DNA from: Candidatus Bathyarchaeota archaeon A05DMB-2
Lineage (GTDB): Archaea > Thermoproteota > Bathyarchaeia > Bathyarchaeales > Bathycorpusculaceae
Length of the DNA stretch: 52,379 nucleotides
Assembly: GCA_018475625.1 (NCBI GenBank)
Contig: JAAKEZ010000014.1
Location: forward strand, 1 to 52,379
Direction of reading: 5' to 3'
In this document: piece after piece, positions 302-22,728 of the stretch
Position numbering within the stretch: position 1 is the first letter of the stretch
Layout: every line of letters starts with the position of its first letter
Notes under the pieces: model-generated
What the model was told of the DNA's origin: nothing
What the model saw: the letters and a program-made list of their open reading frames with translations, nothing else
Database searches by the model: none
Translations under genes and position numbers: made by a program

Positions 302-523
302 CTACTTTTTCAAGCGGTCCATGATAGCCTGCAGCTTCCCCTTTTCCTTCGGCCAGACTCTGTCGGCGGTGCGGAATTTCTTCTCGCAGTTGGGGCACTT
401 CCAGAGGCTGATGAAAACTTTGACTTCTCCAGCTTTGGCTCTGGGTGTGCAGTCCCATGTTTTGATGAGGTCGGCTTTGGTTATTAGGGTTCCGCAGTCT
501 CGGCATTTTGCAAGTGGCTTCAT
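302..523 (-). CDS. Small zinc-ribbon protein (73 aa)
   Basis: The protein has a CxxC pair near the N-terminus (KCRDCG, C7/C10) and a second CxxC pair in WKCPNCEKKF (C43/C46), a two-knuckle zinc ribbon with a basic C-terminal helix. Such proteins are frequent in archaeal plasmids and viruses, but I do not recognise a specific family. It sits between two RHH genes on the same strand, 57 bp from the RHH gene at 69-245, and is probably part of the same mobile-element transcription unit. An overlapping 74-aa frame at 282-506 is a shadow. Nucleic-acid binding is inferred from the ribbon alone. Confidence 0.6.
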   Translation of the reverse strand: MKPLAKCRDCGTLITKADLIKTWDCTPRAKAGEVKVFISLWKCPNCEKKFRTADRVWPKEKGKLQAIMDRLKK

Positions 524-622: not shown

Positions 623-904
623 TTAATGTATTCTGGTGCTGCCTCTGAAGCCTCGATAGTCTTCTGGCGGCTGCTCCTCTTCAAATGTGTAGTCGTCTTC
701 CGCTCGTTTTTTCCGTTTCCAGTGGCGTCGTCTTCGGTCTAGTGGTTCAGAGAAAACTCCCAGGTCCTTGTAGAGTGCTGCCTTAGCGTATTCGCTGGGC
801 GTCATGTTGAAGAGCGCGGCGTGCTGTTTGAGGCGGTCTTTGGCGATCTCGGTGATGCGGAAGCTGATTTGATGCCGTTTTTCATGGAATTTCAGGTTGC
901 CCAT
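623..904 (-). CDS. Ribbon-helix-helix protein resembling mobilisation/plasmid RHH factors (93 aa)
   Basis: Residues about 8-45 read HEKRHQISFRITEIAKDRL followed by helix ALFNMTPSEYAKAALYKDLG. This is an RHH domain of the kind seen in MobC-like and plasmid-encoded regulators: a basic beta strand, then two helices with the turn NMTPSEY. The second half is a highly charged tail (RRRRHWKRKKR, then an acidic stretch), likely disordered. It lies 18 bp downstream of the next minus-strand gene, consistent with one operon ending in integrase. Whether it is a relaxosome accessory factor or an autoregulator cannot be told; no relaxase is in the window. Confidence 0.6.
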   Translation of the reverse strand: MGNLKFHEKRHQISFRITEIAKDRLKQHAALFNMTPSEYAKAALYKDLGVFSEPLDRRRRHWKRKKRAEDDYTFEEEQPPEDYRGFRGSTRIH

Positions 905-921: not shown

Positions 922-1191
922 CTACCGCCGTCTTTTTCCATCATAGTTAAGGCTGTCTGCGAGGTTTACGGGTTTCGTGTGTTCTGCATGGGCTTCTGCT
1001 ACAGTGCTTTTCAAGGGAGCTTTCAGTGGTAGCGAATGATGCTTGGTAGCGTTAGCTGCGAGTGTAGATGCTTTGGCGTCTGTTTTCCGTTTCGTTGCTA
1101 TTTTGAGGCAGCCGAGTGCTTCGTCGTAGGCGCTGCAGTTGGGGCAGTCTTTTGGGACGCGGCGCGATTGGTAGTAGAGGCAGCGTATCAT
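922..1191 (-). CDS. Small Cys-containing protein co-translated with the integrase
   Basis: The start chosen is the ATG at 1191, which overlaps the integrase stop as ATGA (1188-1191), the usual sign of translational coupling. An ATG three codons upstream is possible. The 89-aa product has an N-terminal cluster C4, C16, C19, C28 (YQSRRVPKDCPNCSAYDEAL), suggesting metal binding, followed by a long Ala/Lys/His-rich low-complexity tail. I do not recognise the family. The coupling suggests a role with the recombinase, for example as a directionality or accessory factor, but that is inference. Confidence 0.55.
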   Translation of the reverse strand: MIRCLYYQSRRVPKDCPNCSAYDEALGCLKIATKRKTDAKASTLAANATKHHSLPLKAPLKSTVAEAHAEHTKPVNLADSLNYDGKRRR

Positions 1192-2348
1192 GGTACCCAC
1201 CTTGGGCGTTTGAAATAGATTTCCTGGGGGGTTTGGACGGCGAGTTCCCAGCCTTCCGCGATGTGTTGGGCTATACCTTCTTTGTCGCTGATTTCAAGTC
1301 TCAGGACGTCGTAGCGTTTGATTTGGTCGGGCTGCAGGTGGATGTATATCATGGTGTCCTCGATGTGGCGGTGTCCTAGGCTGCGTTGGACGAGAACCAA
1401 ATCTCTGGTGGCGGCGTATTGGCGGGTTGCGAAGGCATGTCGGTAAACGTAGAGGTTCAAGCCTCTGACGTTATACCCTGCTTGGGATAACTGCTTTCGG
1501 ACGCGAGTCATGACGTCTTGGGCGTCTTTGTAGTCTACGTGCTTCCATGGGATGAAGGGTTTGGTGAAAACGTAGTCTGTTGGTGCTTTCCCCGCGGTCA
1601 GCGTTTTCAAGAGTTCGCAGCATAATGGGCTGATGGGGAGTTCTCGTTCTTGGGTGTCGCCGCTTCCTTTCAGGGTCTTGTACCGGACGAGTTGGCGGTC
1701 GAAATTGATGTCTTGCACTCGCATGTAGAAGGGCTCGCTTGGTCTAGGCCCAGTCTCGTATCTGAGTCTGAAATACGCCGTCCAGCGTAGCTGCATCGGG
1801 ATGGCGAGGCTTGCTTGAAGCGTGTTTTCTGGCGTCAAAATTGGGAGCGGCCGACGCCTGTCTATCTTGATGTCGAGTTCAGCTTTGATGTCGTTGACTT
1901 TTCGGTAATGGTTGTAGGCACTCCGGATTTGTCGGGCTTGTCCCTTCCAAGGTGCTTCTACCATAATTCGGCTTACTGCATTAGGGCTGTCCAAGTCTTT
2001 GAGAACCGCGGCTAGACGATAGAGATAGTTGATGAAGTCGCTAGCTGTCCGCTCTTTCATGCGGCGCTTATCGACTTTGGCTTGTAGGTAGGTTGCGGTC
2101 GCCATGATTTTCTCTAGGGTTGTTATTGGAATCTGCTGTTTGATTAGAAGCCAGTAGTCCTGTTTTCTTTGTTGGGCGACTTCTCTACCTCTTTCTGCCC
2201 ACTCCTGCACTTGCTGCTTTATGGGGTGAACCTTCATGGGACATCGGCGATGCTGCACTCTGGGAACTGGGCAATCTTCTATGGGGCATTCGGCTCTAGG
2301 AAAACACTCAACTGCTGAAGACCCGGGTCCGAATCTCGAGTTTTCCAT
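1188..2348 (-). CDS. Tyrosine recombinase/integrase of the left integrated element
   Basis: This is a phage-type (tyrosine recombinase) integrase. Visible catalytic elements are the first arginine in YETGPRPSEP, the beta-hairpin lysine in KTLKGSGDTQ, box II as YVYRHAF (Tyr where His of HxxR is usual, Arg kept), LGHRH, and the nucleophile Tyr in TMIYIHL. An N-terminal SAM-like helical domain precedes them. The ATG at 2348 is used; a TTG at 2363 and an ATG at 2237 are alternatives. The segment between them encodes a Cys-rich stretch (CPIEDCPVPRVQHRRCP) that looks genuinely coding. Its 5' end lies 26 bp from the encoded 3' end of tRNA-Glu, the expected position for an integrase using that tRNA as target, so the element extends left out of the window. 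The 5' coding region also contains a tRNA-like T-arm segment, as in SSV-type integrases whose attP lies inside int. Confidence 0.85.
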   Translation of the reverse strand: MENSRFGPGSSAVECFPRAECPIEDCPVPRVQHRRCPMKVHPIKQQVQEWAERGREVAQQRKQDYWLLIKQQIPITTLEKIMATATYLQAKVDKRRMKERTASDFINYLYRLAAVLKDLDSPNAVSRIMVEAPWKGQARQIRSAYNHYRKVNDIKAELDIKIDRRRPLPILTPENTLQASLAIPMQLRWTAYFRLRYETGPRPSEPFYMRVQDINFDRQLVRYKTLKGSGDTQERELPISPLCCELLKTLTAGKAPTDYVFTKPFIPWKHVDYKDAQDVMTRVRKQLSQAGYNVRGLNLYVYRHAFATRQYAATRDLVLVQRSLGHRHIEDTMIYIHLQPDQIKRYDVLRLEISDKEGIAQHIAEGWELAVQTPQEIYFKRPRWVP

Positions 2349-2407
2349 AAAAGGGGGGTGCAATCCATGTAGGTGGTGCTCCGGCCGGGATTCGGACCCG
2401 GGTCTTC
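2317..2407. repeat. 19-bp inverted repeat of the tRNA-Glu variable/T-arm region
   Basis: The sequence gaagacccgggtccgaatc at 2317-2335 is the exact reverse complement of 2389-2407, which is the variable loop and T-arm of the tRNA-Glu gene. Similarity continues a few bases beyond with mismatches. The first arm lies in the 5' coding part of the integrase, the second inside the tRNA. It may be an attachment-site remnant derived from a tRNA 3' half, present in opposite orientation to the intact tRNA. Confidence 0.75.
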
Positions 2408-2451
2408 GGCTCGAAAGGCCGGAATACTTGACCGGACTATACTACCGGAGC
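2374..2451 (-). tRNA. tRNA-Glu (anticodon UUC), CCA encoded
   Basis: Read on the minus strand, the acceptor arms GCTCCGG (2445-2451) and CCGGAGC (2378-2384) pair over 7 bp. The anticodon loop is CTTTCGA (2411-2417) with TTC at 34-36. The T-arm is CCGGG/TCCGAAT/CCCGG, the discriminator is A, and CCA is encoded at 2374-2376. The anticodon stem has one C-A mismatch at its outer pair (27-43). No intron is apparent. A TATA-like box on the minus strand (GGTTTATTCG, 2491-2500) lies at a suitable distance upstream. It is the probable integration target of the element on its 3' side. Confidence 0.9.
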
Positions 2452-4304: not shown

Positions 4305-4889
4305 TTATGCTTTTCTTATGCGTTCTGCTTCCTTCTCCTTGAACAGAAACCCGGTTATCTGCTCCACAAGCTTGCCCTGTGTTTTAGCGGTTTTCTCCAG
4401 TTCTTCAACTCGCCTTTCCAGGTCGTTTGAGATGATTTTGCCTTCTATCCTGTTCGCTGAACGGAACATAAGCAGCATCTTGAACGTCTCTGCGACTGCT
4501 TTTTCCTGTTCTTCCGCCGTGGCGGGCTTAATGCCAGCGCATATAGACAACAAGTCAATGTAATGCTCTTTAATCTTCAGCTCCGCGTTCACCGACGGGT
4601 CGGTTGGAAACGCTATCGCCAGTGGAGTCTTCTTGGCAAGTTCAGCTGCTGTTGGGAAACGGATGGTGATGTCTCCTCTTATCCATGATGCGACGAACTC
4701 GGTGACGAAGCGTCTGATGTCCTTCTGCGAGAACAGCGCCGCCGATGGCTCCTGTTTCTTTTTGTGAACCCTTACTTTGATGATTTTCTGGTCTTCTGTG
4801 GTGGCTTTAGCGCCTTTTTCCACGTAATCCTCCTCCAGGTCTGCACTTCTCGCTTTTATCCATCTGCATTCGCCTATTTTAACAATCAC
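4305..4889 (-). CDS. Conserved archaeal protein of unknown function with C-terminal coiled coil
   Basis: The 194-aa protein starts with a short beta segment (MIVKIGECRWIKAR), has a charged linker, then a helical middle (LFSQKDIRRFVTEFVASWI), and ends in a predicted coiled coil (residues about 155-194, ISNDLERRVEELEKTAKTQG). There is no signal peptide and no recognisable catalytic motif. It lies 11 bp downstream of the HD phosphohydrolase gene on the same strand, so it is probably co-transcribed with it. I do not recognise the family. Confidence 0.55.
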   Translation of the reverse strand: MIVKIGECRWIKARSADLEEDYVEKGAKATTEDQKIIKVRVHKKKQEPSAALFSQKDIRRFVTEFVASWIRGDITIRFPTAAELAKKTPLAIAFPTDPSVNAELKIKEHYIDLLSICAGIKPATAEEQEKAVAETFKMLLMFRSANRIEGKIISNDLERRVEELEKTAKTQGKLVEQITGFLFKEKEAERIRKA

Positions 4890-4900
4890 TTAGAGCGCGG

Positions 4901-6181
4901 TTAAAAAGAGATTTTGGCTGCTGACGGAATCTTGCCCAGAATCTTGGCGGTTGCCTTCTCCACGCGTTCCCTGTCAACCTCACGTGTGTAAACTCGCAGT
5001 ATGTTCATGAAGCCCTTCAAAGTCTCAAAAATCTTCGAGATGTCGCTGAGCCGTTGCACCTCTTTGCCGCCTGCCGGCGTCCTAGTGAACACGGGAACCT
5101 CCATGCTCTCCATCAGCACTGCATGGTGATACGGCACCGACGGCACTGTGGGCACGTCAATCACAACTGCCTCAGCGTCCACACCTGCTTCCTTCGCAAT
5201 TTCAGCCTGCATCTGGCGCCTGTACGCCTCGCGCCCAAAAATGTTCGAAACCACCGTGTCCTTCTGGTAGAAAGTCCGCTCGTACGCGCACTTCAGCATC
5301 CGCCGTCGCTCCAAATCCGCAATTATCCCCTTCGACTTTTCGCAGTGCTTCAGTGCCGACCATACGGTGTAGTCATCCATCTCCATGTATTCCTCAGGCG
5401 TCTTGAACGCCGTCAACCCGAGTTCCTCATTCGCCTTCTCCATAGCCATCGCAAGCATTATCTGCGCCGCCCGTCCAACGCGATGGAAGTAGATGCTCTT
5501 AAACGACTCAATCCGCGCAATCATAAACGCTTCCAACGCGGAGAGCGCCCCGACCTCCACGGCTAAATCCTCGCCCAGCACATCCAAAGCGTGGATTAAC
5601 CGAAACACGTCGATGAAGCCGTACTCGGCGCCCGTGTGAAATGTGTCTCTGACGATAAAGTCCTGCTTGTCCACGTCCACAGCGCTACTTATTATCTGGT
5701 CCAAGAAAGCTTTGCCTGGCTTGTGAAGTTTGCCCACCGCGAGTTTACCCATCTCCTCAGGCGTGTATCCCATCTTCGCCACCTTGTCGCCTAACTCGCT
5801 TTTCTCGATAATCCACGAAGTGATGTCTTCATGCGTCCTGTCCAAATCGCGTATAAGCAGCTGCTCAAAAACATGCGAAAACGGGCCGTGCCCAACGTCA
5901 TGCAGCAACCCTGCAACCCGTGCCATATCCATCTCCTCGTCGCTCACTACACCCGAGATGTTTGGGTTCTCAACAACCTTCCCAGCCAAGTACATGACGC
6001 CGAGGCAGTGCTCGAACCTAGTGTGGTTGGCGCCTGGATAAACATACTCTGACCCCGCCAGCTGCCGCAGTCTCCGCAACCGCTGCACAGGATACGCATC
6101 TATGATTGCTTTCTCTGAGTCAGTGATGTACACGTAGCCGTGTACTGGATCCTTTATCTCGCCCCAATACGCTTTCGGCAT
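4901..6181 (-). CDS. HD-domain phosphohydrolase (dNTPase/SAMHD1-like family)
   Basis: The N-terminus WGEIKDPVHGYVYIT, followed by RLRRLRQLAGSEYVYPGANH and TRFEHCLG, is typical of the YdhJ/SAMHD1-like branch of HD phosphohydrolases. The metal-binding residues are the His of RFEHCLG, the HD pair in GLLHDVGHGPFSH, and a later Asp in SAVDVDKQDFIVRD. Family members hydrolyse nucleotides, often dNTPs; the substrate here is unknown. The ATG at 6181 is preferred because GGAGG (6190-6194) sits 8 nt upstream. A GTG five codons earlier would itself overlap this ribosome-binding site. It is divergent from thymidylate kinase, a suggestive pairing for nucleotide-pool control. Confidence 0.85.
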   Translation of the reverse strand: MPKAYWGEIKDPVHGYVYITDSEKAIIDAYPVQRLRRLRQLAGSEYVYPGANHTRFEHCLGVMYLAGKVVENPNISGVVSDEEMDMARVAGLLHDVGHGPFSHVFEQLLIRDLDRTHEDITSWIIEKSELGDKVAKMGYTPEEMGKLAVGKLHKPGKAFLDQIISSAVDVDKQDFIVRDTFHTGAEYGFIDVFRLIHALDVLGEDLAVEVGALSALEAFMIARIESFKSIYFHRVGRAAQIMLAMAMEKANEELGLTAFKTPEEYMEMDDYTVWSALKHCEKSKGIIADLERRRMLKCAYERTFYQKDTVVSNIFGREAYRRQMQAEIAKEAGVDAEAVVIDVPTVPSVPYHHAVLMESMEVPVFTRTPAGGKEVQRLSDISKIFETLKGFMNILRVYTREVDRERVEKATAKILGKIPSAAKISF

Positions 6182-7816: not shown

Positions 7817-8101
7817 ATGCTTATGGTGCGGAAGAAAAAGACAGCGGAATACGAGGAAAAGATTAAGCAAGCGTTGGCTGTGCTTGGGGTGGTTTCAGAA
7901 GACAGCACGACTCCGAGAAACATCCGACGCGCGGCAAAAGATGCCATGGACGCGCTGCAAAGTCCAGAGTTCACGCCCGCTGTGAGAGCTTCGAACGCGG
8001 TTTCGCTTTTGGATGAGATTCTGCAGGACCCGAACATGCCGCCTTACACGCGGGTGAAACTGTGGAACGTGATGAGCCTCATTGAAGCCATAAAAGATTA
8101 A
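7817..8101 (+). CDS. UPF0147 family protein; 3' end is the element integration site
   Basis: The 94-aa helical protein (KQALAVLGVVSEDSTTPRN, IRRAAKDAMDALQ, SLLDEILQDPNMPPYTR) matches the archaeal UPF0147 family of unknown function at its usual length. AGGTGG upstream fits better with the second ATG (7823). The last codons, GAA GCC ATA AAA GA(T), are the left attachment core (8084-8097). After integration the element supplies the final base of the Asp codon and a TAA stop. The right chromosomal junction at 43124 shows that the original end was GAC TAG. The encoded C-terminus EAIKD is therefore unchanged by integration. Confidence 0.85.
   Translation: MLMVRKKKTAEYEEKIKQALAVLGVVSEDSTTPRNIRRAAKDAMDALQSPEFTPAVRASNAVSLLDEILQDPNMPPYTRVKLWNVMSLIEAIKD
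8084..8097 (+). other. attL core of the 17.5-kb element
   Basis: The 14-bp core gaagccataaaaga is shared exactly with 25597-25610 and 43110-43123. The base to its left is T here but A in the other two. The bases to its right (ttaactgggag) match the middle site but differ from the right site (ctagctggcgc). Crossover therefore happened inside these 14 bp. Confidence 0.88.
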
Positions 8102-8117
8102 CTGGGAGCATATAAGA

Positions 8118-9401
8118 CTACTTTCGCTTTCTGAAGACCCTGGCTCCATCTATTTCTGCAATGTATTCAAAGCCTACTTCGAGCAGTTTGCAAGCTTCAT
8201 CTAGGTTGTGAGCAACTTTTACGTGGAATTCGTCATCTGCGTTCTGAAATAATGCTTTTTCGAGGTTGATGTAGATCAGTGTGTTTCTGAGGTCTCTGTG
8301 GCCGAGGACTTGCTGGACGTGCAGGATGTCTTTGGTTTTGTGGTATTCCATGGTTGCTTTCCAGTGGCGAAATGTGTGCAAGCCGATTTCTTTTAGGCGT
8401 GGATTTTGCAGTTTGAACGCTATACTTTTTCGTGTTTTGTAGAAGTTGGATTTGAGGCTGTAGAGTGTTGCGAAGACTTTTTCTGTTTGTCTTGAGTGGT
8501 TGCTTAGCATGTCTATTAGCTTGCGGCTGATTGGTAATACGCGTGCTCTGCTTCCTTTTTCTGGGGTTATGCGTACTATTTTTCGTTCGAAGTCTATGTC
8601 GCTCCATTTTAGCTTTGCCACTTCTCCGCATCTTGCGCCTGTTTCTTTTAGGAATTGGAGAAAAGTTGCGAGTATTCTGCCGCTTCCTGAGATAAGCTGG
8701 TCGATGTCGGCTTCTGTTGGTATGAAAGGTGCTTTGTCTACGGGCTTGTATTTTGGCGGTTGCCATGAGAGGTTGTTGAATTTTAGAAAACTGCCGTAGA
8801 CGATGACTGCCATGGCTTTTGTGGCTTCGTTCCACTCTTTGTCTTTGGCTAAGTATTCTTTCACTGCTTCAGGGGTTAAGTCGGTGTTTTTTGCTAGTTT
8901 CCTAAGAACTGCGCCATAACTTCCAAGGGTGTTGCTTTGGACTCCGTTTTGGCTCAGGTTCCAGAGGAATTCGACGATTTTTCCTGTTTTATCAGTTAAC
9001 TGCGTTGTGCCCTCCCGCTGGGCTGTTTCCTGTCGGGTTCCGCTTGTGACCAAGTTTAATCCTCCTATCTGGAGGGTCCGTGCTCCTCGCATGTGCGATT
9101 CACTGCGTTCTTGGTGCTCTAGAGAAAAGTTGGAGGCTGTAATTAAATTCCATTCTGAAGATTTTTGTGATGGTTTGTTTTGTTTTTGAGTTTGGCTGAA
9201 TCGGTAATTGCAGTCACGGCAAAGCCACCTTTGAACGCTTTCTCCATTTGTCAAATATCGCATTCCGTCTCGGTATATGCGGTTTGAGCCGCATCGTGGG
9301 CATAGGGGGCTGGTGCCAGTGTCCTCTTTTGTGGGCAACTTACCATCGTTTGAACTGGCTTTATCGCCAAATGCCCCGTTTTCTGGTGTAGGTTCAGCCA
9401 T
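8118..9401 (-). CDS. Zinc-ribbon tyrosine recombinase (element integrase), copy A
   Basis: The 427-aa integrase catalyses site-specific recombination at the adjacent att core, 20 bp from its stop codon. An N-terminal zinc ribbon (C34, C37, C61, C64; CPRCGSN and WLCRDCNYRF) resembles those of transposases and archaeal integrases. A SAM-like core-binding domain spans about 140-215. The catalytic set is complete: R257 in ETGARCGEVAKL, K282, H342-x-x-R345 in HTFRHWK, H368 in LGHRD, and Y377 in TLIYINL. A strong ribosome-binding site (GGGAGGA) precedes the ATG. The gene is uninterrupted, so att is not within int. It lies 20 bp downstream of the primase gene and is likely co-transcribed with it. 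Confidence 0.9.
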   Translation of the reverse strand: MAEPTPENGAFGDKASSNDGKLPTKEDTGTSPLCPRCGSNRIYRDGMRYLTNGESVQRWLCRDCNYRFSQTQKQNKPSQKSSEWNLITASNFSLEHQERSESHMRGARTLQIGGLNLVTSGTRQETAQREGTTQLTDKTGKIVEFLWNLSQNGVQSNTLGSYGAVLRKLAKNTDLTPEAVKEYLAKDKEWNEATKAMAVIVYGSFLKFNNLSWQPPKYKPVDKAPFIPTEADIDQLISGSGRILATFLQFLKETGARCGEVAKLKWSDIDFERKIVRITPEKGSRARVLPISRKLIDMLSNHSRQTEKVFATLYSLKSNFYKTRKSIAFKLQNPRLKEIGLHTFRHWKATMEYHKTKDILHVQQVLGHRDLRNTLIYINLEKALFQNADDEFHVKVAHNLDEACKLLEVGFEYIAEIDGARVFRKRK

Positions 9402-9421
9402 TTCCTCCCGCCCGCTTAGTC

Positions 9422-11983
9422 TTAGTTGTTCAGTTTTTCAGAAAGACGCAGTCCGCATGGTCCACAGAGGTGCCCCCAAGCATCATCAAACAGAGTGACC
9501 AGCCAATCCAACCTATCCTTGACCCCGCAGGCTACACATGTTTCAATTTCAACATCCGCCGTTAACCTTGTTAACTCCTTGGTCTTGGATGCGAGAAACT
9601 CGATTTCCGAGCTTGGAGAAGTGGACTTTTCGGTTTTGTCCAAGTAATCATGTTCTGTTTGGCAATCTAAGCCTGAATTTGCCGTAGATGGCATCTGGAC
9701 ATCAGGACACGATGAGACATCGTGTGGGCTAAGCGAAGTATAGCTCTGCAAAACTTGATCAACCGCTACTGGTTTGGCGTTTCCTATACTAAAGCTCACA
9801 GGTATGCCTTTCGCTTGTCCAGTTGTCCAGACAGTTTTCAGCCAGTTTCTGAGACTTTCCGTATGAAAGGAGCTGATTGATCGGATATTTTTGAGAAGGT
9901 CCAGATGATTAGGCTCCTTTTGCAGCAGCGAATAATGGTTTGTTTTTCCCTGCGCCTCTTCCTTCAGATAACCAGCTTGAGCAAGAGTTTTTAGCACACG
10001 TGTGGCGGTCTTTGTGGAAATCTTAAGCTTAGACGCAACATCATTCTTGTTCAAAGACACATCTGCGTTAACGAAGAGCGCCAAGGCTTCCTGTTGCCGC
10101 TTCTCAATCCGAGAAACCGTTTCTATAATGGATGCTCGAAGTATTTCCAGCGCCTTAAGAAAATCCGAAGGCTCAGCAACAACGTACTCAAGCTTGTCCA
10201 CTACCACACGCAGGCGCTGTCTCTGGTTGAGCAACGCAAGTGTCTTGGTGAAGTTAATGATTTTCTTCACATGCGTTCTAAGCGCCACTTCCTGCTCACG
10301 TTTAACAGCCAAACCCAAAATCCCCAAAAGCTGCGAAGGAGCAAAAACAATAACCTCGAGCTTCCAATCCAGCATCCGCAGCGCATTCTGGAAATCCTCT
10401 TCTTTGAAAGGCAGCTCTTTCTGCAAACCAAGCGTGTTTCTCAGCGAATCTGGATAGCTGGCGTCTCGAAGCTCCTTAGCCATAACCCGCTTAGTAAGCG
10501 CCGTGGAATGGTTCATCGAGTGCTTCAAAACGCGCCGGTACAGGTCTGGATTTACGTCTATGTCGCTGCTGGTTGTGATAAAGTTCTTGGCGTTAGTTTT
10601 GGCTTTGCCCATCTCCATCTTGCCCGTTAGCTCGTTACGCATGGGATAGATGGTTTCGATGCTTTCGCCTTCGCCTATGGCGCGTAGGCTGAGGCTTCCG
10701 CTGTCGCCTCGTACGCCAACCGCCTCGTAGATGAGCAGTGTGCCGTCGAAGTCTTCGGGCAAATACTTTATGGCTTCAGGCGTGCTGGTGGTGAATTCGA
10801 AGTACCATTCTTTGGGAATTAAAGGTTTGATGGCTCTGATGCTCTCGTTTTTGCCGCTACCACTAAAACCGCTGATCATGCCCGACACGGGGTAGCGTGT
10901 TCTTCCACTGCAAAACATTATGAAGTTGGATTTTATGGCTTCATCTTCACCGATTAATCGGCGTCTCCCATACGCGAGAGCGTAGTCTAAGAGTTCACCT
11001 TGATTTAGCAGTCTTTCTGCTCTTTCAGTTTCTTCTTTGCTGAGCATCTTGGGGACGCTGGATGGAGCGATTGGGCAGTCGTCTTTGCGGCAGTTGCTTT
11101 TGAGAAAGGCGTCTTGACAGCCGTAGACGTATCCGCCGTTGACCGCGCTTTTCACAATGCCCTGTAGCTCTTGATCTTCCAATGGCGGGTCGTTTAGCCT
11201 GTTGATTTTACGCATTTGCTCAAGGACCTTGTCTGGTCGCAGCTTGCGGAAGTTAACCAAAAAAGATGCAAGGCGTATGGCGTGTTCGTTTCTCTCCCCC
11301 TCTTTGGCGCCTCTGTATAGCGCTTCTATACATGGCGGAGTTTTGCCAGTAAACCGTTTTCCTGACAGATCCTTGCGGTTAAACCATGATTCGGCTTGGT
11401 TTGGTTCTTTTTGGGGTTTGAAACCCGCATGGTACATGGCTTCGAACAATTCTGTCTCAAGATCGCTTACGATGCTGGGCTGGTTATCATTTAATCGAAT
11501 GTACCCGTGACTTGGCGCCATAATGCACAATTTGCCTTCACCAAGCAACTCTAAACCGCATTCACTGTGAAAGCTGCTAATCGTCTTGGGTTTAGCATGT
11601 GTCTGATAGATCCAGTGTTGTCCTCCGCTGGGCGACTGCTCGATTTGCGTTATGAGCAGTTGTTTGAGGATTTGCTTGCCTTTGGCTTGTGCTTCTTCGC
11701 CGACCTTTTTTACGTCAAAATCCACTGCAGCAATGTAGAGCCCGTTTTTCTGTTTTGTCCCGCATAGGACGCTAAAGCCATCCGCGTTTTGCCAGGGCTG
11801 ATTTTTGAATTCTTCTTTTGTTTGCTGGCGGGTTTGCCATTGAGCCCATTCCGTTAAGGGTTTCTTTTGCTTGACAGCAACAACTGCTATGCCTCTTTCA
11901 AAGTACGCCTTAGCTGTTATTAGCAGTTGGTCAGTTGCTTTTTGTTCTCCATTCGGAATGGTGCGAGTTTTCTGTTCAGCCAT
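9422..11983 (-). CDS. Primase-polymerase / P-loop helicase-like replication protein, copy A
   Basis: The 853-aa protein is built like archaeal plasmid replication proteins (pRN1 ORF904 type). An N-terminal prim-pol domain (about 20-190) carries the metal-binding D88-F-D90 and H123 in SGGQHWIY. A PriCT-like helical segment follows (about 230-285, RNEHAIRLASFLVNFRKLR), then a Cys cluster (C289, C298, C303). Next comes a P-loop domain with Walker A GFSGSGKN (372-379) and Walker B GTLLIYEAV. After that are a winged helix (NKNDVASKLKISTKTATRVL, about 640-700) and a C-terminal zinc knuckle pair (CVAC and CGPC). It probably primes and unwinds element DNA. The helicase class is uncertain, as the arrangement is not a textbook SF3 core. 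Confidence 0.85.
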   Translation of the reverse strand: MAEQKTRTIPNGEQKATDQLLITAKAYFERGIAVVAVKQKKPLTEWAQWQTRQQTKEEFKNQPWQNADGFSVLCGTKQKNGLYIAAVDFDVKKVGEEAQAKGKQILKQLLITQIEQSPSGGQHWIYQTHAKPKTISSFHSECGLELLGEGKLCIMAPSHGYIRLNDNQPSIVSDLETELFEAMYHAGFKPQKEPNQAESWFNRKDLSGKRFTGKTPPCIEALYRGAKEGERNEHAIRLASFLVNFRKLRPDKVLEQMRKINRLNDPPLEDQELQGIVKSAVNGGYVYGCQDAFLKSNCRKDDCPIAPSSVPKMLSKEETERAERLLNQGELLDYALAYGRRRLIGEDEAIKSNFIMFCSGRTRYPVSGMISGFSGSGKNESIRAIKPLIPKEWYFEFTTSTPEAIKYLPEDFDGTLLIYEAVGVRGDSGSLSLRAIGEGESIETIYPMRNELTGKMEMGKAKTNAKNFITTSSDIDVNPDLYRRVLKHSMNHSTALTKRVMAKELRDASYPDSLRNTLGLQKELPFKEEDFQNALRMLDWKLEVIVFAPSQLLGILGLAVKREQEVALRTHVKKIINFTKTLALLNQRQRLRVVVDKLEYVVAEPSDFLKALEILRASIIETVSRIEKRQQEALALFVNADVSLNKNDVASKLKISTKTATRVLKTLAQAGYLKEEAQGKTNHYSLLQKEPNHLDLLKNIRSISSFHTESLRNWLKTVWTTGQAKGIPVSFSIGNAKPVAVDQVLQSYTSLSPHDVSSCPDVQMPSTANSGLDCQTEHDYLDKTEKSTSPSSEIEFLASKTKELTRLTADVEIETCVACGVKDRLDWLVTLFDDAWGHLCGPCGLRLSEKLNN

Positions 11984-11993
11984 CGAGTCACCT

Positions 11994-12317
11994 TTAGAGG
12001 AAAAATTCCAATTGGTTTATGCCGCAGCTTTGGATGTATTTTCTGCGGACAGGCAAACCAACCTGCAAAATTTCTTTTTGGATAGCTTCTTTTGTTGCGC
12101 CGCTTTGCTGGCTTAACTTTTCAAGTACAGCCTGCTGCTGCCAGTCGGCAAGTGCTTTCCAGTCCACCGTGAAGACTGACTCGATGTCTTTTATGCCCTC
12201 AAGCTTGGCCCGCTGTGTCGCTATGCTCTGTATGGGTACTTTGCCGTCTGGGAAGACGTCGCCCCATTCTCGTTTGCCTTCAAAGTTCAAACGCGCCCAT
12301 GCTCGATGGTTGGTCAA
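11994..12317 (-). CDS. Small element protein (107 aa), copy A
   Basis: Starts at a TTG (12315-12317). The body is helical: AIATQRAKL-type region, then TVDWKALADWQQQAVLEKLS and GATKEAIQKEILQVGL. No catalytic motif is seen. It ends 10 bp before the replication protein's ATG and follows the 121-aa gene, so it is part of the minus-strand replication operon. Comparable small proteins accompany prim-pol genes in archaeal plasmids, but I do not recognise this one. Confidence 0.6.
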   Translation of the reverse strand: MTNHRAWARLNFEGKREWGDVFPDGKVPIQSIATQRAKLEGIKDIESVFTVDWKALADWQQQAVLEKLSQQSGATKEAIQKEILQVGLPVRRKYIQSCGINQLEFFL

Positions 12318-12338
12318 AATAGAATCCCTCGTGTAGCG

Positions 12339-12704
12339 TTAGGTTTTGGGTTTGAGTTTTTGGCGGTAAATCTTGTCTTCCCCGTATAGCCAATACGAGT
12401 GCTGGTAGCCATCGCCATGGTAGCGGTCTTTTATGGTTGCGTTGCTGTTCCGCAGTATGCTGTAGGCGCTGCTCCATTTGTCGGCTAAGTTGTTTTGTCT
12501 GTAGGCAACTTCGAAATCGCCGAGTTTAGCGCCCTGCTGAGGCTCAAACCGCAGCGTGGTGAATGTTACTTCTTGGACGGCGGTAGCTTGCTTTTTCTCT
12601 TTTACTTCAGGCGGCGCCAAAGAATCAAGGTACTCGTTTGCTGCGTCAGCAATCATCAGGCATCCGTCACGAAGTTTTATAAGGAATTCGATTTGTTTGT
12701 CCAT
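12339..12704 (-). CDS. Small element protein (121 aa), copy A
   Basis: An N-terminal amphipathic helix (IEFLIKLRDGCLMIADAANE) is followed by a beta-rich region (EVTFTTLRFEPQQGAKLGDF) and an aromatic C-terminus (YHGDGYQHSYWLYGEDKIYR). The family is unknown. Its ATG at 12704 lies 2 bp downstream of the stop of the 49-aa gene, indicating translational coupling within the replication operon. Confidence 0.6.
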   Translation of the reverse strand: MDKQIEFLIKLRDGCLMIADAANEYLDSLAPPEVKEKKQATAVQEVTFTTLRFEPQQGAKLGDFEVAYRQNNLADKWSSAYSILRNSNATIKDRYHGDGYQHSYWLYGEDKIYRQKLKPKT

Positions 12705-12706
12705 GT

Positions 12707-12856
12707 TTAACTCTCCAGTTCAGCTGAGTTTGGCGTCTTTGGCTTGTGCTCGTAATCTTCTATGTGTTCGTCGAGGACTTCGTAGGCTACTTCTCGGGCT
12801 ATGGAACGCATCAGTCTTGTCAGCTCAGTTTTTTCGTTGTCGTGTGGCTGGGTCAT
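12707..12856 (-). CDS. Very small element protein (49 aa), copy A
   Basis: The frame reads MTQPHDNEKTELTRLMRSIA and then a helix REVAYEVLDEHIEDYE. It starts with ATG at 12856, 5 bp after the stop of the RHH gene. GGAGG, at the end of that RHH gene, lies about 9 nt upstream as ribosome-binding site. Tight packing with both neighbours supports a real gene. The charged helical sequence suggests a partner-binding or dimeric protein; the function is unknown. Confidence 0.6.
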   Translation of the reverse strand: MTQPHDNEKTELTRLMRSIAREVAYEVLDEHIEDYEHKPKTPNSAELES

Positions 12857-12861
12857 GGCTT

Positions 12862-13032
12862 TTAGCCTCCGCTTGTTTTGCTGTTTAGCTCGGGTTTGTT
12901 GAGAAATTCGGTTATGGCTGCTCGGATGGCTTGGCTGAGATTTTTGAATTTACGTTCAAAAATCAGCTTCTCTAGGCGGGTTCTTTCAGGTGCTTCTAAA
13001 CTTATGGCAATTCTGGACTTGTAGCGTTTCAA
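12862..13032 (-). CDS. 56-aa RHH (CopG-like) regulator, copy A
   Basis: The frame from the TTG at 13032 reads KRYKSRIAISLEAPERTRLE, then helix EKLIFERKFKNLSQAIRAAI, then TEFLNKPEL. This is a complete ribbon-helix-helix domain: basic beta strand, helix, turn KNLSQ, second helix. At 56 aa it equals the size of CopG of pRN1-type plasmids, which represses the replication operon. It is the first gene of the minus-strand replication operon and overlooks a divergent promoter with an inverted repeat (13047-13074) that could be its operator. Autoregulation and copy control are inferred. Confidence 0.75.
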   Translation of the reverse strand: MKRYKSRIAISLEAPERTRLEKLIFERKFKNLSQAIRAAITEFLNKPELNSKTSGG

Positions 13033-13046
13033 GTTTTACACCTTCG

Positions 13047-13074
13047 TTTGTCATACGCTTAAATTAATGGCAAA
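13047..13074. promoter_or_regulatory. Divergent promoter with imperfect inverted repeat, possible RHH operator, copy A
   Basis: TTTGTCAT (13047-13054) and ATGGCAAA (13067-13074) form an inverted repeat with one mismatch around an AT-rich centre (cttaaattaa). It lies between the RHH gene (minus) and the 285-aa gene (plus). The AT-rich centre may also serve as TATA element. Operator function is inferred from position. Confidence 0.4.
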
Positions 13075-13089
13075 CAGATACGGGGTATT

Positions 13090-13947
13090 TTGTGGTCAAA
13101 AGTGCCTTCTCAGGTGGTTTACCAGACAAACGCAGATTGGCATACAACATACGAAGCCTTAGTTAATAATTCGCTTGTGATAGCTGATACTACGCAGAAG
13201 GGTTTGATACAGTTCTGGTTCAGGGATAGCCCGACGCTTTTTATGTTGGCGCCAACGGGTAAGTTGCAGGTGAAATGGAACAATTATGATGAGAAGAAAA
13301 TCCTGTTCAAGTTAGTAAAGAACCTGCTGGTTGCTGGCGATGGCGAGAAGCTTGTTGTGAAACCTTTGAGGCAACAGGTATGGATAGAGTATCCGGTGCC
13401 GCAGTCGTTTAAGCTCTATTGGTGCAGTGACGCAACAGAGTATGTTCTAAAAAAGACTGCAATTGAACAGTCTAAGCGATGTTCTGAAATTGGGGCGAAA
13501 AAAATTAGTGCAGAAGTCAAAGCTGAGTTTTTCAAAGTTAAAAATGCTGTTACCGAGTTGAGGCGTGAGTTTAGGTTTTTCAGGGAGCCAACGTTTAATG
13601 AGGTTGCGTTAAAATCTGGGTGTTTGAATGCTCAGCGTCTGAGGAATTATTTGGTTCTGACCTACTGGAAAGATGATTCAGAGGGGGCGGAACTGACGGC
13701 GAAGCAGGCGATTAACTTGGCTGCTTGGCTTCGCTTTAAGCAGAGTAGTCAGCTGGATCCGCAGTTGATAGCCCTGTGTAAAAAAGCGATTGATTCAGCG
13801 ACTATGGATGCGCTTGTGAGAGCAAGACTTATCCTTAAGACCTATCCTGAATTGGTTCCCACAATTAACTCAGGTAAGCTGGAGTGGCCTGACGAGACAA
13901 AGAACAAGTGGATACAGGTGTTTGGCAGCGAACCTCCAGCACCTTAG
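13090..13947 (+). CDS. Element protein of unknown function (285 aa), copy A
   Basis: Starts with TTG at 13090. The N-terminal half is beta-rich with many aromatic residues (GLIQFWFRDSPTLFMLAPTG, LRQQVWIEYPVPQSFKLYWC). The C-terminal half is helical with a possible helix-turn-helix (FNEVALKSGCLNAQRLRNYL) and long helices to the end. It is divergent from the replication operon and the first plus-strand gene, 645 bp upstream of the Cmr operon. No known family is recognised; a DNA-binding or regulatory role is possible but unproven. Confidence 0.6.
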   Translation: MWSKVPSQVVYQTNADWHTTYEALVNNSLVIADTTQKGLIQFWFRDSPTLFMLAPTGKLQVKWNNYDEKKILFKLVKNLLVAGDGEKLVVKPLRQQVWIEYPVPQSFKLYWCSDATEYVLKKTAIEQSKRCSEIGAKKISAEVKAEFFKVKNAVTELRREFRFFREPTFNEVALKSGCLNAQRLRNYLVLTYWKDDSEGAELTAKQAINLAAWLRFKQSSQLDPQLIALCKKAIDSATMDALVRARLILKTYPELVPTINSGKLEWPDETKNKWIQVFGSEPPAP

Positions 13948-14106
13948 TGCTGTTCTGGACGCCTTGAGTCGGCTGGGCTACCTAAATGTGCAAGGTAAGC
14001 CGTCTGACTTTGGATTAGCTAAAGTAAAATATTTTTTTCTTGCATGCTAGGTCTTTTTAAGTTGCCCATCTTTTTGACCTACGAGCATCAGCAACACTTT
14101 CTTGAG

Positions 14107-14157
14107 AAGAAGAAAAAATAGATTTTTTTCTCTAAAATGTCAATTTTTTTCTTCTTT
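14107..14157. terminator. A/T-rich inverted repeat with poly-T runs, copy A
   Basis: The purine run aagaagaaaaaat (14107-14119) pairs with attttttt-cttctt (14143-14157) with one extra T. The loop contains another T7 run. It follows the 285-aa gene and could end its transcript. Confidence 0.4.
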
Positions 14158-14303
14158 TGCTAAGTCCGACTCAAAAAGCACGTCTTAGTGGTAAAAGAAG
14201 CGCCTCTGCGGCAACCTTCTTCTCTTATTGCTTTAATCGAAAGTACAACAAACCATTTTTCCCGCGATTGTTGTTTTACCCAACTGCTTAAAGCCATCTT
14301 TGG

Positions 14304-14450
14304 CTATATTAGGTCTGCAAACATGGAGTCGGATTCTTCTGTCAACTGGTTGTCCCAGCATTCCCAGCACATGCCATCGTAGTCGATGTATTCTTGTTAG
14401 GTGATTTCTTTGCCGCATACTTCGCAAAAATGCTTTTTTGAGTTGACAAT
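14304..14450 (-). pseudogene. Decayed small zinc-ribbon gene, copy A
   Basis: On the minus strand the frame reads NSKKHFCEVCGKEIT, stop (TAA, 14397-14399), QEYIDYDGMCWECWDNQ and a tail ending at 14304. Two CxxC knuckles of one ribbon lie on either side of the stop, so the frame was once coding. AAAGGAG lies just upstream, but no ATG, GTG or TTG follows it in frame. Both start and middle appear mutated. Confidence 0.5.
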
Positions 14451-14545
14451 GCTCCTTTATTGTGTTCTTGGGTGGGTGTAGTTTTATGCTTTTGGGGTTT
14501 ACTTACCTGGAGAAGAAAACCAAAAAAACAATCAATCGTGTGTGC

Positions 14546-14559
14546 AAATATTTAAATTA
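14546..14559 (+). promoter_or_regulatory. TATA-like element of the Cmr operon, copy A
   Basis: aaatatttaaatta lies 33-46 bp before the TTG start of cmr1, the expected spacing for an archaeal TATA box with a short leader. A second AT-rich stretch (14565-14574) is too close to the start. Confidence 0.5.
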
Positions 14560-14592
14560 AAAACATAAATATAGAATGAGGCAAGCCAGCGT

Positions 14593-15642
14593 TTGATAGA
14601 AGTCAAGCTTAGAACTCTTACTCCTATCTGGACAGGCAACGTAGACCGCGACAGCCCAAGTTTAAAGGACACAGGGCTTCTTGGGTCATTGAGATTTTGG
14701 TACGAAGCGTGGGTACGCGCCCTTGGCGGTTCTGCGTGTGACCCAACATCTAAAGATAAATGCGAGTATAAAGGAAAAAAAATCAGTATTTGTCATGCTT
14801 GCCAACTTTTTGGCTGCGCCGGTTGGGCGAGAAAATTCAGGATCGAATGTACAGGTCTTGAGACCAGCCCGCTGTTTTTGGTGACATCTTCTAAGATCAA
14901 TCAAGGCTGGTTGAAAAGAATATTCGAGAAGCAACACAACGCCCTCTTTGGGCAAGCAAGCCTAAAGATAACAGCTGATGACAAAGACAACGAAGATGTC
15001 TTATTGGCAACACTTTCGCTAATTTCTAAATATGGTGGTTTAGGAGCTAAAACACAACACGGATTTGGCCAATTCCTTATTGAAAACCTCGACACAAAAA
15101 GAGTGGAAAATGGGCTGTCAACAATCCGAAGTTCGATAAGTGAGAAAACAGAGAACGCCTCCAAGCCTAGCCTGTCTAACTTTTTTATTTCGAAGTTCAA
15201 GATAGATGAAAATAGTGTAATCGTTGATTACTATTTGACAAATCCGTTAACTATTGGGACGTCCTCTAGTGGATATGGAAAGTATATTCCTTGCAGTTTT
15301 GACATTCGATATAAAGGAGAAATTCAAGGGCGCAGCTTTGGATTGCGAAATTACTTCCGAGAGATATATGGAACGCAAGTTACGGAAAGAATATTTGGAT
15401 ATGGCAAGGGCGAGAGTAGGCAGGGAAGCAAACTATTTGTAAGCCATTTATACAAGGAAAACAATTTTGACAAATTCTATTACTTCAAAGTTTGGGGTTT
15501 CATTTCTCCGAAACTGTCGACGAAACCTAACTTTTCTATAGATCTTCGCGAAGAAATCATCAAGCATATGCAGAGCAGGTTTAAGCCCGCTCAAGCGGTA
15601 TTTGATAAAGCTGGTTATGAATTAGAGGAGGTATCAAAATAA
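14593..15642 (+). CDS. cmr1: Cmr1, type III CRISPR effector RAMP protein, copy A
   Basis: A Cas7-group RAMP subunit of the Cmr crRNA-guided complex, positioned near the target-RNA end. The N-terminus LRTLTPIWTGNVDRDSPSLK, then TGLLGSLRFWYEAWVRALGG, is the Cmr1 signature. A Cys cluster follows (SACDPTSKDKCEYKG, ICHACQLFGCAGWARKF), and the glycine-rich loop is YGGLGAKTQHGFGQF (about 147-161). It starts with TTG at 14593. Its TAA stop overlaps the next gene's ATA codon (ATAA, 15639-15642). First gene of the operon, it is 349 aa, normal for Cmr1, and visibly A-rich in codon use compared with the replication genes. Confidence 0.88.
   Translation: MIEVKLRTLTPIWTGNVDRDSPSLKDTGLLGSLRFWYEAWVRALGGSACDPTSKDKCEYKGKKISICHACQLFGCAGWARKFRIECTGLETSPLFLVTSSKINQGWLKRIFEKQHNALFGQASLKITADDKDNEDVLLATLSLISKYGGLGAKTQHGFGQFLIENLDTKRVENGLSTIRSSISEKTENASKPSLSNFFISKFKIDENSVIVDYYLTNPLTIGTSSSGYGKYIPCSFDIRYKGEIQGRSFGLRNYFREIYGTQVTERIFGYGKGESRQGSKLFVSHLYKENNFDKFYYFKVWGFISPKLSTKPNFSIDLREEIIKHMQSRFKPAQAVFDKAGYELEEVSK
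15625..15642 (+). promoter_or_regulatory. Ribosome-binding site and ATA/TAA start-stop overlap, copy A
   Basis: GAGGAGGT (15625-15632) sits 7 nt before ATA (15639-15641), which overlaps the cmr1 stop TAA (15640-15642). In a normal ATGA overlap the third base would be G; a single G-to-A change at 15641 would turn both ATG into ATA and TGA into TAA. This site decides the start of the following gene. Confidence 0.55.
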
Positions 15643-16913
15643 CAATAAGCGACTTCTATGCTAATGTCAATAGAGACTACAACGACCTTTTTCAGGATTT
15701 AGAAAATTGGGTAACGAGCGAATGGAGAAGAATAAAAGAAAATCGGCAAATCAGATGGGAAAACAAAGTCAAAGAACTTAGACAACATATAGAACGAGAG
15801 ATAACAACAAGGGTTCTTGCTGAAAAAGAATCCTCTTGTATAACTCATTACGCAAAAGAGCAATTACTCTTGCAGCATATCCTCCAGAGAAGAATGGCAG
15901 CACTGAAAGGTCATGTCCACTCAATCCTACAACAGGATATCAGGGGTTATGATGGGAAAGAGATCAATAAACTTGACTTAAGCGCAATTCCAAAGCAAGC
16001 ATACGAGCGGTTAATGCATCCAACTCCCAAAGATTGGTTCCACTTTCCAACAGAACTTACTGCTCTATCAAACATGTTTACACTGTCTCCCGTACAATTA
16101 GCCGGTGTTTCCCACTTAATACGGATAACTTTTACACTCAAGAAGCCCTACATCAGCTTGGACGATGACGCTTTCTACGTTATAGACAATCCGGTGATTA
16201 AAGACACTGTCTTAAAGGTTCCAATAATACGCCCTACAACCTTGAAAGGTGCCTTAAGGTACGTAGCGATGAAAATGAGGTTAATAGATTCCACTTCAAC
16301 TGATGTCGAGTTCTACGTTGATGAAAGGATAAAGCTCGTCAAGTTGTTTGGGAGTGAAAAAGACACTGTTGAGGCGTTTTTGGGCAACCAATTCAGACGT
16401 AAACTTGGAGAGGTAGAAGGAGAAAAAGGTACTCAAGTGTTTAAGGAAAGAATGAAGCCATATGTTTCAGAAAGCGGGAGTAGAGAAGGAAGACTAATTT
16501 TCTATCCAGTTTTCTTCGATTCATTAGGGTTGGATGTCATTTCTCCGCATAACAGAAAAACTAGAACGATTGCTGAAATGGGGCCTATCTTTTTTGAAAC
16601 TGTGCCTGTGGGTGCACGGGGGATTTTTTCACTTTTGTATTTTCCCTTTGACCTTCTTCCAACACTCAGAAGCGGAGGCAGTGCCGAGAGAGCAAAAGCC
16701 ATTAGTGAAATGAAAGAGGACTTAGAGGTGTTGAAGGAAGCCGTTCCGGCGATGCTTCTAACTTACGGCTTCGCAGCCAAAAAAACAAGCGGATACGGCG
16801 TTGTAGAAGACAAGATAGACTTTTGCATTGATTCTGTCGACATGAAGTTGTCGAACTTTGCAGCTTACAAAAATCAGATAAATCTCCTCATCAGAACATT
16901 GGTGAGCGGCTAA
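15639..16913 (+). CDS. Cmr6-like RAMP protein with apparent AUA start, copy A
   Basis: The Cas7-group core has VPIIRPTTLKGALRYVAMKM (insertion into the RAMP fold), then EGRLIFYPVFFDSLGLDVIS and PHNRKTRTIAEMGPIFFETV. These recall Cmr6 (a D-x-x-PH segment followed by a 'P-x-x-F' strand). The glycine-rich loop is LLTYGFAAKKTSGYGVVED. The first in-frame TTG is at 15870. The 77 codons before it (TISDFYANVNRDYNDLFQDL and so on) look coding and have a strong ribosome-binding site, so the real start is taken as ATA at 15639. Minus-one frameshifting from cmr1 at the A-run (15636-15639) is an alternative. The stop directly abuts the Cas10 ATG (TAAATG). Assignment to Cmr6 rather than another RAMP is moderately sure. 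Confidence 0.7.
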   Translation: MTISDFYANVNRDYNDLFQDLENWVTSEWRRIKENRQIRWENKVKELRQHIEREITTRVLAEKESSCITHYAKEQLLLQHILQRRMAALKGHVHSILQQDIRGYDGKEINKLDLSAIPKQAYERLMHPTPKDWFHFPTELTALSNMFTLSPVQLAGVSHLIRITFTLKKPYISLDDDAFYVIDNPVIKDTVLKVPIIRPTTLKGALRYVAMKMRLIDSTSTDVEFYVDERIKLVKLFGSEKDTVEAFLGNQFRRKLGEVEGEKGTQVFKERMKPYVSESGSREGRLIFYPVFFDSLGLDVISPHNRKTRTIAEMGPIFFETVPVGARGIFSLLYFPFDLLPTLRSGGSAERAKAISEMKEDLEVLKEAVPAMLLTYGFAAKKTSGYGVVEDKIDFCIDSVDMKLSNFAAYKNQINLLIRTLVSG

Positions 16914-19900
16914 ATGAACACTCAAAATTGTGAAGCACTCGAAAAACTCAAACAACACAGCAGTATAATAGCTATTCTGGAGATAGCAAGCCTTCTACAT
17001 GACATAGGAAAATGTAACAATAGATTCCCAAAGAAGCAAATGCAAGACGAAAAAGAAGAGTATGATCATCTCTCTATTCTAGAATATGACAAAAAATTGA
17101 TTGAAGGCACAAAACTGGGCGATTTATTTTTTAGCTATAACTTTGCAGAAATTTGCAAAGAACTGCCGCCAGTCAGCGGCATAGTTGATAAATGGGCGCT
17201 GAAAAGTTCAAGTATTGAGTCTTTTGTGAAAAAACACGAAAAAACAGAGGAAGAGAAGAAGGCCAAAAAAGAAAACCCAGAAACCATACTAATTGCTTTA
17301 CTTCGAATTTCCGACAAAAAAGATGCTTCTGACGATAGAAACATGCCTATTGCTAAACAAGCAAAAAAGACGTATTATTCCACTGTTTTCGGAAAGGAAA
17401 CAGAAATTGCAGATTTGGATAAGTTGCGAGAAGAATTTTACGGAAAACTATCTGAAGCCTGGCTGGAATACAAAAATCAGCATAACACTAAAAGGTTTAG
17501 AGAAAGGGTACTTTTCGCCTTCAAAAAAATGGGCGGCGTCCTAGCTGAAACGAGGAGAGCAGCCAACGATATTTCTTTATGGCATCATTCTTATGCAACA
17601 GCCTCAATTATGAAGACTTTGTTGTCGGGTGATGTTCTCACTGATTTCTCAACCAAACTTGAGAGCTTGCTTCCAACTGACAACCACTGGAATGTTGAAC
17701 TAAAAGTCATAGGTATAGGTTGGAATGCCAACAGATTTTTGGCTGAGTCTCAGTCATTATCAGGGCTTATAGGCAGAAAAAGACTAATTAGAAGATTCAA
17801 ACGAAGACTAAAAGTGTTATTGGAATATGAATACTCCGTTGGGAACGTAATATATGAGGATCAAGATTCGCTCTGTTTTCTAGTTTCAGATAAAATCGAT
17901 GAAACAATTAGATACTGCTTAACGGAGAAAGTAATTGAAGCTGCAAATCATGTAACCAAAGGCTCTATAATACCAATTGTTGAACTAAGCAAAGCTGACG
18001 CTTACCCAAACAAAATCATACCTCAAGTGATTAGGAATCTTAAGAAAAAGACAATGGTGCCAATTCAGGATAGAATACTGCCTCAATGGACTTCTTGCTG
18101 GGATAAGAATAAAGTCGACGGCGAAGTCTGTGCCCAATGCGGAAGACGACCTAAATCAAAAGGTGAAGAACTCTGCGAGTTTTGCATGGAAATAATTAGA
18201 GAGGGAGCGTCGAACCCCATAAAGAAGGCAATCGACTCACCCTCTATTTACGAAGAGACCGTTTGGATAGATGAGATTGCTGATGAAAACGGAAATTTGG
18301 CATTGATTTTTGGTTCGTTACCGCTACTAGAATGGCTTGATGGAACACGACTTAAGACCACGCGCATAAAGTCAATACAAGATATTAAGAACCATAAAGC
18401 CAAAGAGTTAGGATATACCTTAAGCGATGGGGCAAAGGTCGAATCCTATTTTGGTAATTATTCAGGTCTTCTAAAAGCAACCACAAAAATTGACCCAAGT
18501 TCGCTTAGAAACAACAAAGATACAGCAAAGATGCTTTATCCGTTTTTAAATTTTCCACCGCAAAGAGAATCTTTAATTGATATTTATGAAAGCATCTGCA
18601 ATAAGTCGGATAGCAAAGATCCAGCGCGGATTCTCGAAGTTTTGATGACAAAATCAGCGTCGCCTTCTCGTTTAAGAAAAATCTGGATGGAAACCCAAGC
18701 TTTCTTCAAAGATCTCTCCAATAAAACAGCAGAAAATGCTCGCACGCGCATAGGTGATTATTGTTTAAGATTGAAGCTCAAACTAAAACCCTTGAGCATA
18801 GACGGCGTATACCTTCTAAAATCAGAAAACTCGGGCATTCTTGAGGTTGAAAAGTTTAATCCTGAAACAAAACTTCCAAAAAGCGATCTTTTCTGGGATG
18901 GGGAATACGCTTACACAACAATAAGGCTTGAGCATTATGCACCAAGCAGCACTACAAAGAAAAAACCAAAAGAGGCACTGTTAAAAGAGAAACACGAATA
19001 CATCAAACGGGTCGTTGAGAAACTTCAAGCTTCAAACGAAGCATTTGTGACTGTAAAGGACAAGAAGAACAAACGAGAAAAAATCTCTTTAGCTGTAGAG
19101 TCCTACAGTTTTGAAAAATATATTCCAGTTAGAACGATCTTGGCGTCTCCTAACTTATTTGTGACCCTTGTACCCGCAGAACTAGCCCTCAGAATCGTAC
19201 AGAAAGAATACTTACCAAGTTATCAGGAGTGTTTTGGGAAGGTAGCTGATAGATTACCACTTAACGTGGGCATATTGTTTTTCAAAAGAAAATTCCCATT
19301 ATATATAGCAATGGATGTTATGGGAAGACTGGTTGATCACCTTTTGTCTTTATCATCTGAACGTCGAGTCTTCAAAGTTGCAGAACGTAATGCTTCAGAA
19401 TTGGTTTTGGAAGAATACAACGGAGACAAACAGCAACTGCTATGCACCAAAGACAGGTGGTTAGCAAAATACAAATGGAAAATTGATAATAAATTAGGCG
19501 ACAACGGTGAAGACCTGTATTACCCCAATTTCATCGTTTCAACAAATAATCCTGATGTTCAGAAAAAAGAGACTTACTTTGAGTTGGGCAACATCGGATC
19601 GATATTGAATATCAAAGATATCGAAGCAGGCATGTCCTTGCAGGTATATCCAGGTTTGTTTGATTTCCATTTCTTAGGCGCCACAGGCGAAAGGTTTCAT
19701 CTTTTCTCAGATAATAAAAAGAGGCGGCACCCGCTACTGGGAGCCTTTGGTATGAGACCTTACTTGTTAAAGGACATTGAAAAAATGAATGAACTCTGGA
19801 ATATCATAAGCCCAGAAAAAGGAAAACTCACAACGTCGCAAATTAAGAAACTCGAATATGCATGTATAACAAAAATTGAAGATTGGTTCCAAACTGGGCA

Positions 19901-20090: not shown

Positions 20091-20093
20091 TAA

Positions 20094-21239: not shown

Positions 21240-21245
21240 GAAAAG

Positions 21246-21746: not shown

Positions 21747-21757
21747 TAGTGGAATAA

Positions 21758-22648: not shown

Positions 22649-22728
22649 AATACAGTATTGAATTAAGATGACCATAATTTGCCAAATTAATCAGATAGTA
22701 ACGAATTTACAATAAACTCACAGGACAA

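Follow-up and report, generated by a model that had tools for sequence, protein, structure and literature searches.

A tyrosine recombinase gene of the PF00589 family (Phage_integrase) lies directly against a tRNA-Glu gene in Candidatus Bathyarchaeota archaeon A05DMB-2. We think it likely that an element carrying its attachment site (attP) within this integrase gene inserted at the tRNA and split the gene; an inverted partial copy of the tRNA inside the integrase frame may serve as a sequence recognized by the integrase. A wider comparison suggests that PF00589 integrases, too, evolved or acquired such self-disruption, and that it is common in elements of Bathyarchaeia. The stretch analyzed, called the window throughout, is the entire contig C68 (52,379 nucleotides) of a 2.48-Mb genome in 110 contigs. 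Its relevant features are the following.

302-523, minus strand: small ORF with weak zinc-ribbon matches under the Pfam cut-off (Pfam search)
623-904, minus strand: ORF with a weak NikA-like (ribbon-helix-helix) match under the Pfam cut-off (E 4e-4)
922-1200, minus strand: small Cys-containing ORF of the element, with no family in a Pfam search
1188-2441, minus strand: int(C), the catalytic part of the split integrase, whose start and first 32 codons lie on contig C93 from position 1280
2299-2305 and 2340-2346, strands not assigned: GGAAAAC and GTTTTCC, judged a chance inverted repeat
2314-2338, plus strand: inverted partial copy of tRNA-Glu (tRNA bases about 42-66), 23 of 25 bases identical, exact over the 19 bases 2317-2335
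2356-2363, minus strand: TTGCACCC, picked by eye as a candidate counterpart of a GAACCC-like motif, weak and at an offset unlike that of the family
2373-2397, minus strand: 25-bp att core, an exact match to the C93 border, with an empty site in genome G001
2374-2451, minus strand: tRNA-Glu(TTC), the intact target gene (ARAGORN), with the same sequence in G001

The integrase is encoded on the strand of tRNA-Glu, directly past the tRNA 3' end, in a frame that is stop-free for 417 codons from stop to stop (1191-2441) and open into the tRNA. The first start codons in the window are TTG at 2363 and ATG at 2348, 10 and 25 bases from the tRNA, and the window frame by itself has 391 codons counted from a TTG. 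At C93:1351-1375 stands an exact second copy of the final 25 bp of the tRNA-Glu region. On this contig, an ATG at 1280, preceded by AGGAG and an AT-rich promoter-like stretch (both seen by eye), opens a frame that passes through the att in the same phase as the window integrase. The joined C93-window leader translates without a stop. In G001, a genome of the same genus, the locus is one uninterrupted stretch, and its flanks match the C68 side at 90% over 598 bases and the C93 side at 88% over 202 bases, which indicates that the element was inserted. The locus thus combines an intact tRNA at one border, a tRNA fragment at the other and an empty site elsewhere, the arrangement sought for a suicidal integrase. 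The element ends are C68:1-2373 and C93:1-1375; because the middle is unassembled, the two contigs are linked by att, phase and empty site only. The earlier note had proposed a second integrated element beside tRNA-Glu, which the repeat and the empty site bear out, and the other att copy that it sought is present, on another contig.

A Xer-like recombinase would have brought the element into tRNA-Glu(TTC) by site-specific recombination. In the circular free form, the integrase frame would run from C93:1280 through the 25-bp tRNA 3' end into the window, for 426 codons. Integration would rebuild the tRNA and cut the gene, so that the promoter-like sequence and the N-terminal codons stay at the C93 border and the catalytic part comes to lie behind the intact tRNA. 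The att lies inside the reading frame (type I, SSV-type), and N- and C-terminal pieces stand in frame across it at the two borders. By this architecture the window integrase is a suicidal, SSV-type enzyme with a gene apparently cut by integration. Since the gene is cut, autonomous excision has probably been lost, and the integrated element could probably leave only if int(C) were expressed or a related integrase supplied, the routes given for SSV2 and pTN3 in section 30 of PMC8371274.

The same arrangement was found in related integrases. An eight-row integrase profile had matches in 131 of 256 genomes of the class at 1e-50. The 90 loci that we examined overlap in some cases and hold 92 integrase ORFs; the set is biased toward close matches of profiles that were built from its members. 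Integrases with an upstream tRNA on the same strand made up 24 rows, or 20 distinct loci after removal of four repeat fetches. The frame was open into the tRNA in all 20, and 16 had a distal att together with an N-terminal piece in frame, six of them found first (G000, G028, G031:C3, G001, G160 and G227) and ten in a later search. At the remaining four (L055, L061, L168 and L170), no distal att was found within the stretches examined. Spacing of the att copies puts 14 of the 16 elements at about 1.4 to 7.6 kb and one at about 20 kb; the sixteenth is the window element, with its unassembled middle. Many of the remaining integrases showed the classical layout, with an oppositely oriented tRNA at the 3' end of the gene, or were without a tRNA detected by ARAGORN. 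A second kind of integrase in these loci is mostly at least about 400 residues long, with its 3' end toward the tRNA 3' end (an unsplit layout) and, by eye, a zinc-ribbon-like N terminus in several cases. At one locus (L286, G137:C35), two att-like repeats (4879-4909 and 8236-8288) lie downstream of a single tRNA-Thr, which suggests two tandem elements in that gene; G227 (L092) likewise has two distal repeats.

The window frame matches PF00589 at E 4.6e-21, and its relatives in the PDB are XerD and a XerC/XerA-like enzyme. An R...YxxR...Y pattern is present by eye, with Y305 and R308 in the YxxR. The predicted structure has a mean pLDDT of 56, and no conclusion rests on it. Both the PF00589 domain and the YxxR motif are shared with pNOB8-type and XerA-XerD tyrosine recombinases, YxxR being the pNOB8-type motif in the passages of PMC8371274 that treat it. 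A classical pNOB8-type (type II) element, with an intact integrase beside the att and an accidental frame on C93, would account for this motif and for the 391 codons that the window offers by itself. We hold this to be very improbable, since the frame runs open into the tRNA at all 20 same-strand loci, and at 16 of them the distal att comes with a start codon and an N-terminal piece in frame. As described in PMC3293823, pNOB8-type genes stay intact on integration, whereas the window gene has left its start and 32 codons on C93. The two nearest relatives, from metagenome-assembled genomes of Candidatus Bathyarchaeota, show HxxR at this place, so YxxR is not a constant feature.

The split arrangement recalls SSV1 of the Fuselloviridae, in which attP also lies in the 5' part of the integrase gene, the gene is cut on integration and the tRNA is restored. 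The proteins, however, show no clear sequence similarity (BLASTP E 0.019 over a short stretch). The SSV1 integrase, used as a control, matched PF16795 (Phage_integr_3) at 1.5e-61, whereas all ten integrases scanned here, eight from the 20 loci plus two at which no tRNA was detected, matched PF00589 and none matched PF16795 at E 0.05. The family of the window integrase thus falls outside PF16795. Furthermore, SSV1 has a 44-bp att that is antisense to its integrase gene, whereas the att of the window is sense and 25 bp long. According to passages of PMC8371274, suicidal integrases carry PF16795 and have a single origin, and those of pTN3 and pT26-2 (Thermococcales) are assigned to it, which by that description sets them apart from the window integrase. 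The mention of Bathyarchaea found in those passages concerns topoisomerases. An SSV1-like integrase split by integration has also been mentioned for a thaumarchaeon (PMC6563490). The PF00589 suicidal integrases of Bathyarchaeia look like a second lineage, possibly of independent origin. If so, how and why self-disruption evolves could be compared between the two lineages. A literature search, mostly of papers outside subscription and including passages of PMC10848311, PMC13107129, PMC5495485, PMC6563490 and PMC3293823, turned up neither PF00589 suicidal integrases in Bathyarchaeia nor an inverted tRNA copy matched to its target. In viral contigs, the full integrase protein and the N-terminal profile A2 had no relative, and profile A1 had two weak integrase matches. 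In the 256 class genomes, profile A2 recovered its own two rows at 7e-47 and 7e-33, and 11 further matches at 0.004-0.05 were judged unconvincing.

The inverted copy starts 35 bases past the tRNA-Glu 3' end, on the int(C) side of attP, where it would form a second, target-matched, tRNA-derived segment, and it leaves the integrase frame open. Its local-alignment score of 40 was never reached in 500 shuffles of the flank (maximum, 33). Controls from the same genome scored at most 22 (3000 random 150-base windows) and at most 18 (flanks of 29 other tRNAs, with tRNA-His left out). Among the 48 tRNA hits of the genome, several of them partial, tRNA-Glu(TTC) was the best source, ahead of a partial tRNA at a contig end (35) and Glu-CTC (33). 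A different tRNA as the source was rejected on this ground.

The earlier note had described a 19-bp inverted copy of the tRNA T-arm region in the first codons of the integrase; this holds, with a match better than chance, and the copy proved longer. Its placing of an SSV-like attP within the integrase gene also stands, although the att used is the sense-oriented tRNA 3' end, through which the original, longer frame passed, and not the inverted segment. The two explanations that it offered for the orientation fell away: nothing points to a large inversion, the segment being a separate partial copy of tRNA-Glu, and a different tRNA-derived att gives way to tRNA-Glu(TTC) itself. The note had also read GGAAAAC and GTTTTCC as a tiny acceptor stem. 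An inverted repeat of equal size and spacing occurred in 115 of 2000 shuffles, so the pair is no evidence of such a stem; GGAAAAC lies where the note had put it, and GTTTTCC one base away from the 2341-2347 given there.

The copy might instead be a relic or an alternative of an SSV1-type antisense attP, permitting insertion in the opposite orientation. The SSV1 attP is indeed antisense to the integrase and likewise in its N-terminal coding part. However, the Glu copy has neither the acceptor stem nor the 3' end of the tRNA, so its use as attP would give a broken tRNA, and the two proteins, of different Pfam families, are not recognizably related. No inverted tRNA copy was found in SSV1 itself (score 11). 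We consider this origin decidedly improbable.

A second case was found in the same genome, on contig C103, past tRNA-His (104353-104427). An inverted copy of the 3' half of tRNA-His starts 38 bases past the tRNA, with 28 of 34 bases identical, and none of 500 shuffles was as good. After it, the frame running out of the tRNA encodes a piece resembling the N terminus of the window integrase (score 73, whereas 2000 shuffles did not exceed 46 and the five other frames did not exceed 22); against the full window protein, the match is weak (E 0.005). This integrase gene is decayed and ends at a TAG, and the gene that follows is presumably that of ribosomal protein eS30. A distal att was not found in about 80 kb around tRNA-His, and at the corresponding place G001 has tRNA-Leu, not tRNA-His, before an eS30-like gene. 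The Glu and His copies each match their own tRNA best among the 48 hits, and both take in variable-loop and anticodon-stem sequence beyond the extent of the 25-bp att. To the left of tRNA-His (L266, L041; about 95-104 kb of C103) lie, by eye, ParB-like, ArsR-like and arsenite-pump-like ORFs and then another integrase.

The inverted copy is rare, occurring at the window locus and its decayed tRNA-His relative. The other 19 same-strand integrase loci had none (scores of at most 18), so the integrase family does not need it. A pattern scan for inverted copies matched 16 of the 256 genomes of the class and 34 of 398 from the phylum, two overlapping sets; the pattern requires GGTTCRAATC and therefore misses the tRNA-Glu of the window. 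Among the 41 loci examined from both scans, which include part of the phylum matches, only that on C103 has an integrase of the window kind, and the other inverted matches were convergent tRNAs or short T-loop matches. In five phylum-sample genomes (L212-L214, L216 and L217), an inverse T-arm match of 12-17 bases lies 37-40 bases past tRNA-Asp, and an integrase of the window kind is absent there.

A shorter inverse motif, GAACCC-like, lies 8-10 bases past the tRNA in the integrase family (0 of 5000 control draws) and could be a right-hand half-site of the integrase. Its match to the tRNA of its own locus was not significant (322 to 1741 of 5000 permutations). A wider-window form of the test, before dereplication, gave 39 of 5000, and an earlier 17-base form showed nothing except Glu.

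The role that we tentatively assign to the long copy is that of an additional integrase-recognition sequence. In favor of this putative role are the similar place of the two copies, each matched to its own tRNA, and the likeness of the residues after the His copy to the window integrase. Against it, there are only two cases, in one genome, and one is a relic; in addition, a simple binding site leaves unexplained how retargeting came with both copies changed. A target-matched copy bears on how suicidal integrases change target while the att is coding sequence.

In quasipalindrome correction, a template switch extends an imperfect palindrome to a long one. The copy could be a by-product of such a switch in replication after integration, with the tRNA T-arm and a weak inverse match nearby in the integrase gene as the two templates. 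The copy holds tRNA sequence beyond the att, which adjoins the integrase gene only once the element is integrated; the GAACCC-like motif could seed the switch, and most relatives lack a long copy. However, two separate events would be needed at similar places in the same integrase subfamily, and the Glu copy preserves the open frame. We regard this origin as somewhat less probable than the recognition role, but as its chief competitor.

Control at the RNA level is another candidate explanation, in which a read-through transcript from the tRNA promoter would let the copy pair with the tRNA, and a long hairpin around the start of int(C) would silence it, the pairing being shorter in the free state. 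The tRNA with its trailer folds at -64.2 kcal/mol (z -4.47; none of 200 shuffles folded as well), and the free leader at -44.9, the latter being a different and longer sequence (179 versus 162 bases). Such a fold, however, is expected of any long inverted repeat, and the hairpin would trap an essential tRNA as well, which makes this control improbable in our view. A more far-reaching reading is also conceivable: in a second, independently evolved PF00589 suicidal lineage, widespread in mostly small elements of Bathyarchaeia, the target-matched inverted segment of one branch, including tRNA sequence that it meets only after integration, would be a built-in switch between the free and integrated states. 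We consider this reading unlikely.

Elsewhere in the window, 8084-25610 and 25597-43123 form an exact direct repeat of 17,527 bases (period 17,513; overlap, 14 bases) that encodes an integrase (PF00589), a Prim-Pol, a RAMP protein, AbiEii and a weak AbiEi match. A neighboring protein of 1058 residues has no Pfam match and may be Cas10-like. The repeat is either a tandem element or a circular element assembled twice.
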